From: Geothrix sp. 21YS21S-4
Lineage (GTDB): Bacteria > Acidobacteriota > Holophagae > Holophagales > Holophagaceae
DNA: 64,000 nt
Assembly: GCF_030845995.1 (NCBI RefSeq)
Contig: NZ_CP132719.1
Coordinates: 1,054,001-1,118,000 of the forward strand
Reading direction: 5' to 3'
Shown here: in pieces, positions 57,971-61,838 of the stretch
Layout: each line of letters begins with the position of its first letter
How positions within the stretch are numbered: the stretch's first letter is position 1
Position numbers and translations under genes: made by a program
Notes under the pieces: model-generated
What the model saw: only the letters and a program-made list of their open reading frames with translations
Databases searched by the model: none
What the model was told of the DNA's origin: nothing

Positions 57971-58048
57971 TTAACCGCCGATGTCGCAGAGGGCGCAGAT
58001 GAAAGCTTGCGAGGCTTTTTCATCGGCGGCCATCTGCGGTTGAAATTC
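57971..58048. repeat. Inverted interspersed repeat C
   Basis: Left arm 57971-58004, with the AACCGCCGATG core, and right arm 58015-58048, whose reverse complement has CAACCGCAGATG and GCCGATGAAA. The left arm also contains a tandem-like CGCAGATGA. It lies between cysK and the CAP gene and looks like the AACCGCAGATG-type short repeats seen in many bacterial genomes. Confidence 0.6.
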
Positions 58049-58075
58049 ATTTATCGTCGACCTTCGGAGGTGCCC

Positions 58076-58699
58076 ATGGGGCTGGCCGCGCTGGTGTTCG
58101 CGACGCTGGCGCTGGGCGCCCAGGCGCCGCCCCAGGAGAAGGCCACGGCCTTCGAGCGGGCGGTGGTGCAGGAGATGAGCGACGCCCGGGCGCGGCCCCG
58201 GGCGTACGCGGCCCATCTGCGGGAGCTGCGTCCCTACTTCGAGGGCGCGCTGTGGAAACGGCCGGACCGCGTGCCCCTGCGGACCGAGGAAGGGGTGGCG
58301 GCGCTTGATGAGGCCGTGGCCTTTCTCGAATCCCTCCAGCCCATGGGGCCCTTGCGCTTCAACGAGGGCCTGGCGAGGGCCGCGCGGGCCCATGCCCGGG
58401 ACATCGGTCCCCGGGGCAGCCTCGACCACGCGGGGGCGGACGGCAGCTCGCTGTCGGCGCGGCTGAACCGTTTGGGGGCGTGGCACGGGCTGATCGCCGA
58501 GAACATCGCCACCTACGAGGACGACCCGCGCCAGGTGGTCCTCCAACTGATCATCGACGACGGGGTGGCGTCCCGCGGTCACCGCCGGAGCCTCTTCAAT
58601 CCGGATCTCCACCAGGCCGGGGCGGGCGTCGCGCCCCATCGCCAGTACCGCACGATCATCGTCATCGACTACGCGGACGGCTTCGTGGAGCGACGCTGA
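58076..58699 (+). CDS. Secreted CAP (SCP/PR1)-domain protein
   Basis: 207 residues from ATG 58076, with CGGAGG upstream; signal peptide AALVFATLALGAQAP. The CAP fold is visible: RAVVQEMSDARARPRAY, RAHARDIGPRGSLDHAG, LIAENIATYEDDP, HRRSLFNPDLHQAGAGVAPH (each in part), with the two His and Glu of the cavity region. Periplasmic or surface protein of unknown activity; some CAP proteins bind sterols or lipids. It precedes the mla operon. Confidence 0.87.
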   Translation: MGLAALVFATLALGAQAPPQEKATAFERAVVQEMSDARARPRAYAAHLRELRPYFEGALWKRPDRVPLRTEEGVAALDEAVAFLESLQPMGPLRFNEGLARAARAHARDIGPRGSLDHAGADGSSLSARLNRLGAWHGLIAENIATYEDDPRQVVLQLIIDDGVASRGHRRSLFNPDLHQAGAGVAPHRQYRTIIVIDYADGFVERR

Positions 58700-58744: not shown

Positions 58745-59533
58745 ATGGCTTTCCTTGCGCGGCTCGGCGCGCCGGTGCGCCGCTTCCTGGCCTTCCTCGG
58801 AGCCCAGGCGCGGCTGTGCGGAAGCACGATCCGCCACGGAGCCGCCCTGCGCTCCGGCCAGTGGGCGGTGGTGGGAGAGCAGATCCGCCTCCAGGTGAGG
58901 TTCACGGGATTGGATGCGGCCGGGCTGGTGATGGGAACGGCCTTCCTCCTCGGGGCGGTGACGCTGATCCAGGCCTTCAGCCAGCTGTCCGCCCTCGGCG
59001 CCGAGCGCTATGTGGGCGCCCTGATGGTGGTGATCGTCCTGCGGGAACTGGGCCCGCTGCTGACGGCGATGCTGGTGATCGGGCGCAGCGCCACGGCCAT
59101 GGCCGCCGAACTGGGCGCCATGCAGTTGAACGGCGAGGTGGAGGCGTTGGTGGTCCACGGGGTGGACCCCTACCAGTACCTCCTGCTGCCGCGGTGGGCG
59201 GGGGCGGTGGTCTCCCTCTTCGCCCTGGTGGCGCTGTTCGACGGGGCCGCGCTCGCCGGAGGATTCGCGGTGGTGCGCCTGAATCACGGTGTCACCTTCG
59301 GGTTCTTCATGGAATCGGTGCGACAGTCCCTGTCCAACCTGGATTTCGCCGCCACGCTGCTCAAGGTGGGGCTGTTCGGCAGCGCGATCACCTTCCAGGC
59401 CTGCCATTTCGGCCTCGGGATCCGCCGCAGCCGCACCGAGATCCCCCAGGCCGTCACCCGGACGGTGGTGGCGACGCTGGTGTCCGTGTTCCTCGTCGAC
59501 GGCCTCGTGGCCGCGCTGTTCTACGCCCGATGA
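58745..59533 (+). CDS. mlaE: MlaE-family ABC permease
   Basis: 262 residues, about five helices, with the hallmark MlaE loop (VIVLRELGPLLTAMLVIGRSATAMAAELGAM in part) that couples to the ATPase. It moves phospholipids between the membranes with MlaF and MlaD. Its stop overlaps the mlaF start (ATGA). Confidence 0.93.
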   Translation: MAFLARLGAPVRRFLAFLGAQARLCGSTIRHGAALRSGQWAVVGEQIRLQVRFTGLDAAGLVMGTAFLLGAVTLIQAFSQLSALGAERYVGALMVVIVLRELGPLLTAMLVIGRSATAMAAELGAMQLNGEVEALVVHGVDPYQYLLLPRWAGAVVSLFALVALFDGAALAGGFAVVRLNHGVTFGFFMESVRQSLSNLDFAATLLKVGLFGSAITFQACHFGLGIRRSRTEIPQAVTRTVVATLVSVFLVDGLVAALFYAR

Positions 59534-60159
59534 TCGAAGTCCGCGGCCTCGCCTGCGACACGCCCGAGGGCCGGCCCCTGCTGGAGGGGCTCGACCTGGA
59601 CGTGGCGCGGGGCGGAACCCTGCTGGTGACGGGAGCCAGCGGTTCCGGCAAGAGCCGGTTGCTCAAGGCCATCGCCGGGATCGAGGCTCCGCGGGCCGGA
59701 GGCGTGAAGGTGGCAGGAGGAGGCCGCGTCCGGATGGGATTCGCATTCGCGGAGGGCGGTCTCCTGTCCAACCTCAGCCTGGCGGAGAACCTGGCGCTGC
59801 CCCTGCGCTTCCTGGGCCTTTCGCGGGCCGAGGCGCACCGCCGGGCGGAGGCGGCCCTCGATCGGCTGGATCTGCGGCTGGTGGCGGACCTGCGCCCCCA
59901 TGCCGTGGGCGCCTCCGCCCGGAAGCGCGCCAACCTGGCCCGGGTGCTGGCGCTGGCGCCCGACCTGATCCTCCTGGACGACCCGCTCGAAGGGCTGGAT
60001 GCCGCCGACCGCGCGACCGCCCTGGCGCTGATTCTCGGGTGGGCCGCCGATCCGGAGGTCACCCTGCTCCTCGCCGCGGAGGACGCCGCGGCCTTTCCCG
60101 GGTTGGAGGCTCCGCGGCTGGAGCTCCGGAATTCTTCCCTTCCAGCGGAGGCGCCATGA
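59530..60159 (+). CDS. mlaF: MlaF-like ABC ATPase with degenerate catalytic motifs
   Basis: 209 residues, shorter than E. coli MlaF. Walker A is intact (GASGSGKS, 35-42), but the Q-loop glutamine is replaced (FAFAEGG, A74), the LSGGM signature is VGASA (126-130), the Walker B glutamate is aspartate (ILLDDPLEGLD, 151), and the switch histidine is absent (AAED, 182-185). Its place between mlaE and mlaD with 4-base overlaps on both sides shows it is expressed with them. It may bind ATP but hydrolyse it poorly, or need another ATPase. Confidence 0.87.
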   Translation: MIEVRGLACDTPEGRPLLEGLDLDVARGGTLLVTGASGSGKSRLLKAIAGIEAPRAGGVKVAGGGRVRMGFAFAEGGLLSNLSLAENLALPLRFLGLSRAEAHRRAEAALDRLDLRLVADLRPHAVGASARKRANLARVLALAPDLILLDDPLEGLDAADRATALALILGWAADPEVTLLLAAEDAAAFPGLEAPRLELRNSSLPAEAP

Positions 60160-61121
60160 ACTTCGACAAGCAGGACGTCCGTCTCGGCTGCTTCGTCCTC
60201 CTGGCGCTGGCCCTGTTCGGAGGCCTGGTGGCCTACAAGAACGCCGGGGCGGTGACCGAGCGCACCTACCGGCTGCGGGTGCGGCTGGACGGCATGGAGG
60301 GCCTCGGGCCGGGCACGGACGTGCAGCTCAAGGGCTACCGCGTGGGCCGCGTGGAGCGGGTGGACCTGCTGCGCGAAGGGGAGGACTACCGCTTCCGCGC
60401 CGTCATCGCCGTGCGCGAGGACATCCGGCTGTGGCGGGGCACCCGTGCCGTCGTCGCGCCCAAGGGCGTGGGCGGCGCGGTGCTCGACCTGCGCCTTCCG
60501 GAGCTCGCCCAGCGGACCGTCCCGCTGGCGGAGGGCGAGGAAATCGCCGGCGAAGAGGGCGCGTCTCCGGGCCGCATCCTGGAGCGGGCGGATGGCCTGC
60601 TCGCGAACCTGAACCTGTCGCTGGACGCGCTGCGGGACCGCCTCCGGACGCGGGGCGTGGATGACTTCCTGGAGCATCCGGCGGTGGCGCGCTCCCTTCG
60701 CTCCCTGGACGCGACGCTGGCGGAATTCCAGGCCCTGGCGCGGGAAGGGCGGGGCGTTGCGGCCCACGCGGACCGCAGCATGGCGGGGGCGGACCGGGCC
60801 CTCGCCGACCTGGAGAAGAGCCTGAGCCTGACCCGGGGCCTGCTGGAAGCGCGGCAGCCGGAGCTGGACCGCATCGTGACGGGGCTGGCGTCGGTGCTCC
60901 AGCAGGCGGACGGCGCCCTCGGGCGCTTCCGGACGGAGGAGCAGCCGGAAGTGGACGCCAGTCTGCGCGCGCTTCGCCGCTCGCTGGAATCCGCGGAGGA
61001 ACTGCTCCAGTTGCTCAAGCAGCGGCCCAGCCGGGCGGTGTGGGGACAGCCCGGGGACGCGGAGCGCGAACGGGCGCGAAAGGCCGCGGAGGCGGCCCGC
61101 AAGGGCTCAGATCCCAAGTAG
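60156..61121 (+). CDS. mlaD: MlaD-type MCE-domain substrate-binding protein
   Basis: 321 residues. One N-terminal helix (about 10-28, CFVLLALALFGGLVAYK), then the MCE domain (about 38-120: GLGPGTDVQLKGYRVGRVE). The C-terminal half is a long charged helix-rich region (about 150-300), longer than E. coli MlaD and likely a coiled-coil tunnel or stalk as in longer MCE proteins. Start overlaps mlaF (ATGA). Confidence 0.92.
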   Translation: MNFDKQDVRLGCFVLLALALFGGLVAYKNAGAVTERTYRLRVRLDGMEGLGPGTDVQLKGYRVGRVERVDLLREGEDYRFRAVIAVREDIRLWRGTRAVVAPKGVGGAVLDLRLPELAQRTVPLAEGEEIAGEEGASPGRILERADGLLANLNLSLDALRDRLRTRGVDDFLEHPAVARSLRSLDATLAEFQALAREGRGVAAHADRSMAGADRALADLEKSLSLTRGLLEARQPELDRIVTGLASVLQQADGALGRFRTEEQPEVDASLRALRRSLESAEELLQLLKQRPSRAVWGQPGDAERERARKAAEAARKGSDPK

Positions 61122-61283
61122 GTCTTTGGATCGTTCGTTTTATATCCTTTCGGTGGAAGGGGCATGGTTTGAATTTTGCGACCTTGTTTCACGGGGGGCG
61201 CGCGGCATCCTGGGAAGGAACCTCAAGGCCGCCGCAGGCGGAATTCCCGGGTGCTCCCCGCGCCCCACTTCGCAGGAGCAACC

Positions 61284-61838
61284 ATGGGCAACCTGGCGAC
61301 CATCCGCAACGGCGTGAACGTGGAAGAGCTGGAGGCCATGCGGGCGCGGGTCGAGCAGGAGCCCGCGGGCGCGCAGTTCACCTTCCGGTCCCGCGTGAAG
61401 TGGATCAACCGGGCCCACTCCCAGAGCGCCTTCGGCTCGGTGTACGGCTGGGGCGAGGAGCACGCCCGGCCGGTTCCCCTATTTCTGGAAGGGGATGAAC
61501 CCGCGGTGCTGCTGGGCACGGACCTCGCGCCGACGCCCCGGGAAGCGGCCCTCCACGCCCTGGGAGCCTGCCTCAGCGCCACCTACGCCTATGCCGCCGC
61601 GGCCATGGGAATCGACATCGCCAGCCTCGGGTTCGACCTGGAGACGGACGCCGATCTGCGGGGGTTCTTCGAGACGGACCCTTCCGTCGGGCCCGGCCTT
61701 TCCCAGATCCGGATCAAGGTGAACCTCGCGTGCAGCGGGACGCCGGAAGAGGTGGAGGAACTCCACGCGCGGGCCGCCCGGACTTCGCCGCTTCTCGACG
61801 CGTTCCGGAATCCGGTGGACGTGCGCATCGAAACGTAG
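61284..61838 (+). CDS. OsmC/Ohr-family protein
   Basis: 184 residues from ATG 61284, with CAGGAG upstream. OsmC fold: PREAALHALGACLSATYAY with one of the two redox cysteines (ALGAC) and a C-terminal cysteine near VNLACSG. Ohr/OsmC proteins reduce organic hydroperoxides. Its first 60 residues are longer than in typical OsmC. The region 61122-61283 upstream holds a TATATC (61141-61146) but no clear promoter. Confidence 0.85.
   Translation: MGNLATIRNGVNVEELEAMRARVEQEPAGAQFTFRSRVKWINRAHSQSAFGSVYGWGEEHARPVPLFLEGDEPAVLLGTDLAPTPREAALHALGACLSATYAYAAAAMGIDIASLGFDLETDADLRGFFETDPSVGPGLSQIRIKVNLACSGTPEEVEELHARAARTSPLLDAFRNPVDVRIET

Follow-up and report, generated by a model that had tools for sequence, protein, structure and literature searches.

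The direction in which MCE and Mla systems move lipids, and the role that ATP plays in this movement, are still debated. In ABC transporters, a nucleotide site is formed by the Walker A and Walker B motifs of one subunit and the signature motif of the other, and the neighbourhood of the Q-loop of the NBD contacts the coupling helix of the permease. For MCE/Mla systems, both directions of lipid transport are discussed (excerpt of PMC7790496). According to an excerpt of PMC7367683, the MlaF subunits of E. coli embrace each other via a C-terminal extension, and neither of the MlaF mutants K47A and E170Q rescues. Walker B mutants of MceG destabilise the mycobacterial Mce complexes (excerpt of PMC9947336).

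The genome of Geothrix sp. 21YS21S-4 consists of one contig of 3.08 Mb, from which we analyzed a stretch of 64,000 nucleotides (hereafter the window; C1:1054001-1118000) that carries an mla-like operon of three genes arranged head to tail on the + strand. The first gene, E2 (58745..59533; 262 aa), encodes an mlaE-like permease that matches PF02405 with 190 bits (cut-off 22.5 bits) and falls in the E2 clade of the MlaE tree described below; its score against NCBIfam TIGR00056 was 144 bits, below the cut-off of 212. The second gene, F2 (59530..60159; 209 aa), matches the NBD profile PF00005 with 64.7 bits (cut-off 25 bits) and encodes an mlaF-like, putative pseudo-ATPase, while the third gene, D2 (60156..61121; 321 aa), encodes an mlaD-like MCE protein (PF02470, 44 bits; cut-off 25.1 bits). 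As the sequence-only reading of this DNA had stated, E2 and D2 are complete on either side of F2 and the genes overlap, by 4 bp at both junctions. A gene for a CAP-domain protein (PF00188; window 58007-58699) immediately precedes the operon in the same orientation, and a gene for an OsmC-like protein (PF02566; window 61176-61838) immediately follows it.

The motifs of F2 were assigned by alignment to the canonical MlaF (F1) encoded elsewhere in the same genome, and all of them are given here on the + strand. Walker A (GASGSGKS, residues 35-42; 59632..59655) agrees with the canonical pattern GxxGxGK[ST]; this motif is lost in most sister genera. At the Q-loop position (residue 74), which together with the conserved block GGLLSNLSLAENLALPLRF (residues 76-94) spans 59746..59811, Gln is replaced by Ala (FAEGGLLSN). 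The signature is degenerate (VGASARKR, residues 126-133, as compared to LSGGMKRR; 59905..59928), with GAS where the canonical protein has SGG. Walker B (DLILLDDP, residues 145-152; 59962..59985) has Asp151 (59980-59982) in place of the catalytic Glu, the mild one among the motif changes of F2, and Glu184 (AAEDA; 60079..60081) occupies the H-switch position instead of His. The D-loop (EGLD) is intact. The alignment thus bears out the earlier observation of a normal Walker A combined with an altered Q-loop, signature, Walker B Glu and H-switch; judged by its motifs only, F2 would not qualify as a working MlaF ATPase. We also observed that the F2 of the window lacks 12 residues ahead of the Q-loop (near 59718, between residues 63 and 64) that nearly all other Geothrix F2 have; the F2 of genome G076 lacks a similar stretch.

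An AlphaFold2 model of F2 (built with 15 sequences; mean pLDDT 88.6, pTM 0.85) was placed among ordinary NBDs by Foldseek and VIA-align, with LolD, MalK and FtsE first (Z about 25) and MlaF (6xgz) close behind these top matches (Z 23.3). F2 is thus predicted to fold as a normal NBD, and this fold by itself indicates no function. D2 is predicted to consist of an N-terminal helix, one MCE domain and a long helical C-terminal part, with no beta-barrel predicted; the model has a mean pLDDT of 59 and is unreliable outside the MCE domain, and we therefore make no claim of a needle or pore.

To place these changes among relatives, motif residues were counted in 60 distinct F2 sequences from E2-type operons of Geothrix, other Holophagaceae and three further Acidobacteriota families. 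None of the 60 sequences has the H-switch His (the truncated L137 does not extend to that position) and none has a full SGG signature. The Q-loop Gln is kept in 3 of the 59 F2 with sequence at that position, the catalytic Glu in 8 of 60, and the Walker A Lys in 40 of the 59 with sequence there (37/41 in Geothrix, 2/2 in g19, 0/12 in other Holophagaceae and 1/4 in other families). By comparison, all 26 canonical MlaFs in the same alignment retain every motif residue.

Within Geothrix, the H-switch His is replaced by Glu in 42 of 42 distinct sequences and the Q-loop Gln is replaced in 41 of the 41 with sequence there. Of the two signature glycines, 32 of 42 sequences have lost the first and 39 the second, and no sequence has both. 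At the position of the catalytic Glu, 32 sequences have Asp, 2 have Gly and 2 have Ala, and 6 still have Glu (n = 42), while the Lys of Walker A persists in 37 sequences and is replaced by Arg in 4 (n = 41); the Walker B Asp (42/42) and the D-loop Asp (37/42) are also kept. All 12 F2 of g17 and g21-g24 have lost the Walker A Lys together with the Gln and the Glu, and the His is missing from the 11 sequences that reach that position (L137 is cut by a contig end); the two g19 sequences are intermediate in motif loss. Outside the Holophagaceae, E2 relatives were found in G251 and G534 (f34), G158 (f41) and G521 (f76), and F2 is degenerate in all four. The F2 of G158 keeps Walker A and the Gln, has LSDENRR as its signature and Asp for Glu, and lacks the His; that of G521 has lost Walker A entirely. 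Degenerate motifs were hence present in all related genomes found with the operon, and a close relative with normal motifs, looked for specifically, was not encountered among the 60 F2. A sequencing error or the decay of a single copy can be ruled out, as like losses occur in every one of these relatives.

The window genome contains exactly two MlaE and two MlaD matches. The second mla operon is located near 1.608 Mb and includes the second mlaF that the sequence-only reading had proposed to look for, i.e., F1, which has all canonical motifs. F1 genes of Geothrix genomes pass the motif patterns in 30 of 30 cases, and F1 is present in 70 of 77 family genomes. In a tree of 71 MlaE (a quick, unrooted tree that includes one very long E2 row, L252), one branch with an SH-aLRT of 99 separates 31 E2 from 40 E1. 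A degenerate F2 lies beside 31 of the 31 E2, and a canonical F beside 39 of the 40 E1, with no F in the stretch examined for the remaining one (L250). One single loss event in the E2 clade would be the simplest reading of this unrooted tree. No match to MlaC (PF05494) was found in the 77 family genomes, in a search that did recover it from E. coli and Caulobacter among 14 control genomes; an MlaC shuttle of that family is therefore unlikely for either mla system. The MlaD of the canonical operon (D1; L033, after F1 near C1:1608850) is much longer than D2, and on visual inspection its end looks similar to the fused outer-membrane barrel that has been described for Veillonella MlaD.

A close E2 ortholog was found in 32 of the 37 genus genomes examined (including that of the window), and F2 matches at E 1e-30 were found in 42 of 47 genus genomes and 44 of 77 family genomes; none of these 44 is interrupted by an internal stop. 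The five genus genomes in which F2 was not found (G021, G027, G031, G034 and G036) are fragmented, MAG-like assemblies of 210-530 contigs, so that gene loss is indistinguishable from missing sequence there. Six further genus groups of the family carry E2 relatives with 43-58% identity and the same gene order; among 30 non-Geothrix family genomes, 14 contain a full E2 and G086 contains a cut-off piece, whereas no E2 was found in genera g16, g18, g20 and g25. Beyond the family, the search for E2 covered Acidobacteriota only (396, 148 and 41 genomes, in partly overlapping sets). F2 follows E2 in 72 of the 72 loci that extend at least 300 bp past E2 (duplicates between collections counted). Distant ABC matches from the genome contig scan (L079-L124) were judged irrelevant, as no MlaE was recognised beside them in the stretches examined except at L084, which adjoins a canonical-type MlaE.

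Selection on the operon was assessed with the Nei-Gojobori (NG86) method in 39 Geothrix genomes. Median omega was 0.17 for E2 (741 pairs), 0.41 for F2 (736 pairs) and 0.31 for D2 (741 pairs; D2 is cut in many loci), as compared to 0.08 for F1 and 0.12 for E1 in 30 Geothrix genomes. By this comparison, F2 is relaxed yet constrained, i.e., under purifying selection. In all 25 closest pairs listed, omega was below 0.5. Within Geothrix F2, pN/pS was lowest at the altered signature (0.26) and at Walker B and the D-loop (0.27), reached 0.34 for the Q-loop and the block after it, and was highest (0.85) in residues 161-178, which evolve almost freely. Eleven positions are invariant in 52 of 52 family F2 (P54, G57, G76, G77, L78, N81, N87, P91, P123, R138 and P152), and 6 of these fall in the block right after the Q-loop; the first two glycines of the block vary outside the family (L241, L244). 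We infer that this block may dock on the coupling helix of the MlaE-type permease; gene order and the conserved block likewise suggest a putative association of F2 with E2.

Motif loss, clade-wide retention, purifying selection and the predicted fold, all drawn from sequence, suggest that F2 is probably a conserved pseudo-ATPase with a structural or gating role in E2-F2-D2, an Mla-like complex of the MCE type in the inner membrane. With its NBD fold and conserved block, F2 would most likely keep the E2 dimer attached to the D2 ring, or gate both. Geothrix F2, which retains the Walker A Lys and the Walker B Asp, may still hold ATP as a static, unhydrolysed ligand. Replacement of the Q-loop Gln, the signature, the catalytic Glu and the H-switch His should, however, leave it unable to hydrolyse ATP fast enough to power transport. 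In most sister genera, even ATP binding by F2 has probably been lost. If so, lipids would cross E2-D2 passively, or their movement would have a driving force outside F2. A broader proposal, to which we would give an even chance, is that an entire MlaE-type clade in Acidobacteriota gave up ATP hydrolysis; its members would have become lipid conduits independent of ATP, in which the pseudo-ATPase acts as a gate or scaffold.

Among the three readings offered earlier for F2, the inactive structural subunit is the best supported, by the clade-wide occurrence of the changes, the deeper losses in sister genera, the conserved block and purifying selection. An F1:F2 heterodimer that powers E2, in the manner of ABC transporters with one degenerate site, seems unlikely: a canonical F1 exists in this and most other family genomes, but F2 is degenerate on both faces, and as a site needs Walker A and B together with the signature of the partner, both composite sites would be damaged and no canonical one could form. 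F1 also occurs in g16, g18, g20 and g25, the genera in which no E2 was found. In favour of pairing with another ATPase, the sharing of an ATPase between MCE operons has a precedent in MceG (excerpt of PMC9947336). It is also quite improbable that F2 has remained, at least in Geothrix, an ATPase whose atypical active site has Asp instead of Glu, Glu instead of His and a SASARK-like signature. Retention of Walker A, the Walker B Asp and the D-loop in most Geothrix F2 would fit such an enzyme, as would the fact that the altered motifs are strongly conserved there (e.g., His to Glu in 42/42), but 4 Geothrix F2 from this very operon carry Arg in place of the Walker A Lys, and all 12 F2 of other Holophagaceae lack it; a different catalytic mechanism, as once suggested for this protein, is unlikely where this Lys is gone. 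In addition, E170Q alone does not rescue E. coli MlaF (excerpt of PMC7367683).

It is very improbable that F2 is in the course of decay and persists only through its neighbours in the operon. F2 does have the highest omega of the three operon genes, as would also appear under slow decay, and this counts against a conserved pseudo-ATPase, as does the variation of the first two glycines of the putative docking block outside the family. The nearly freely evolving residues 161-178 would also fit decay; on the other hand, no internal stop interrupts any of the 44 genomic matches, omega stays below 0.5 in all 25 closest pairs listed, and the degenerate state spans a multi-family clade and retains the conserved block. 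A further point against a pseudo-ATPase is that, in Geothrix, the altered signature and Walker B are constrained while the Walker A Lys, Walker B Asp and D-loop Asp are kept, a pattern that might point to some other, conserved role for nucleotides instead of simple loss. As MceG Walker B mutants destabilise Mce complexes, the catalytic NBD there matters even for stability; together with the results for the E. coli MlaF mutants, this leaves a purely structural NBD without direct precedent among the MCE transporters compared, as far as excerpts of PMC9947336 and PMC7367683 describe them.

The open-licence literature in PubMed Central yielded no report of a degenerate MlaF, or of Mla in Geothrix or Acidobacteria, and nothing on the E2-F2-D2 system was found there under pseudo-ATPase ABC subunits. 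An MlaE-type system with a retained, apparently dead NBD thus looks new, whereas ATPase-less MCE conduits (PqiA, LetA) are already known. A long-conserved natural clade without a working ATPase, present beside a canonical system, would allow the permease and the MCE ring to be studied without hydrolysis, and the graded loss, with Walker A mostly kept in Geothrix and lost in most sister genera, would provide natural intermediates.

Compared to the known systems, E2-F2-D2 resembles MlaFEDB/MlaFED of E. coli and A. baumannii in its gene set (mlaE-mlaF-mlaD), its MlaE and MlaD Pfam families and its NBD fold. Among PDB sequences, F2 is matched best by 6ic4, an entry annotated as ABC transporter ATP-binding protein that we take to be A. 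baumannii MlaF. E2-F2-D2 differs from MlaFEDB/MlaFED in that F2 lacks the ATPase motifs, in that MlaC is absent from 77 of 77 family genomes, and in that F2 has no C-terminal extension like that of approx. 25 aa in E. coli MlaF. The membrane proteins PqiA and LetA differ in kind from E2, which belongs to the MlaE family and keeps an NBD-fold partner. PqiAB and LetAB are likewise MCE lipid conduits, with a membrane subunit that has no ATPase (excerpt of PMC12436622). Mycobacterial Mce1 and Mce4 with MceG are also MCE-type complexes, in which the ATPase subunit is needed for stability (excerpt of PMC9947336), but MceG has canonical motifs and serves two operons, while F2 is degenerate and encoded in its own operon. 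ABC transporters with one degenerate site, such as ABCB11, have also lost the catalytic Glu and other motif residues (excerpt of PMC7544095). These transporters, however, keep one good site per dimer whereas an F2 homodimer would have none, and F2, if it is a homodimer, would represent a pseudoenzyme among ABC proteins with both sites dead.
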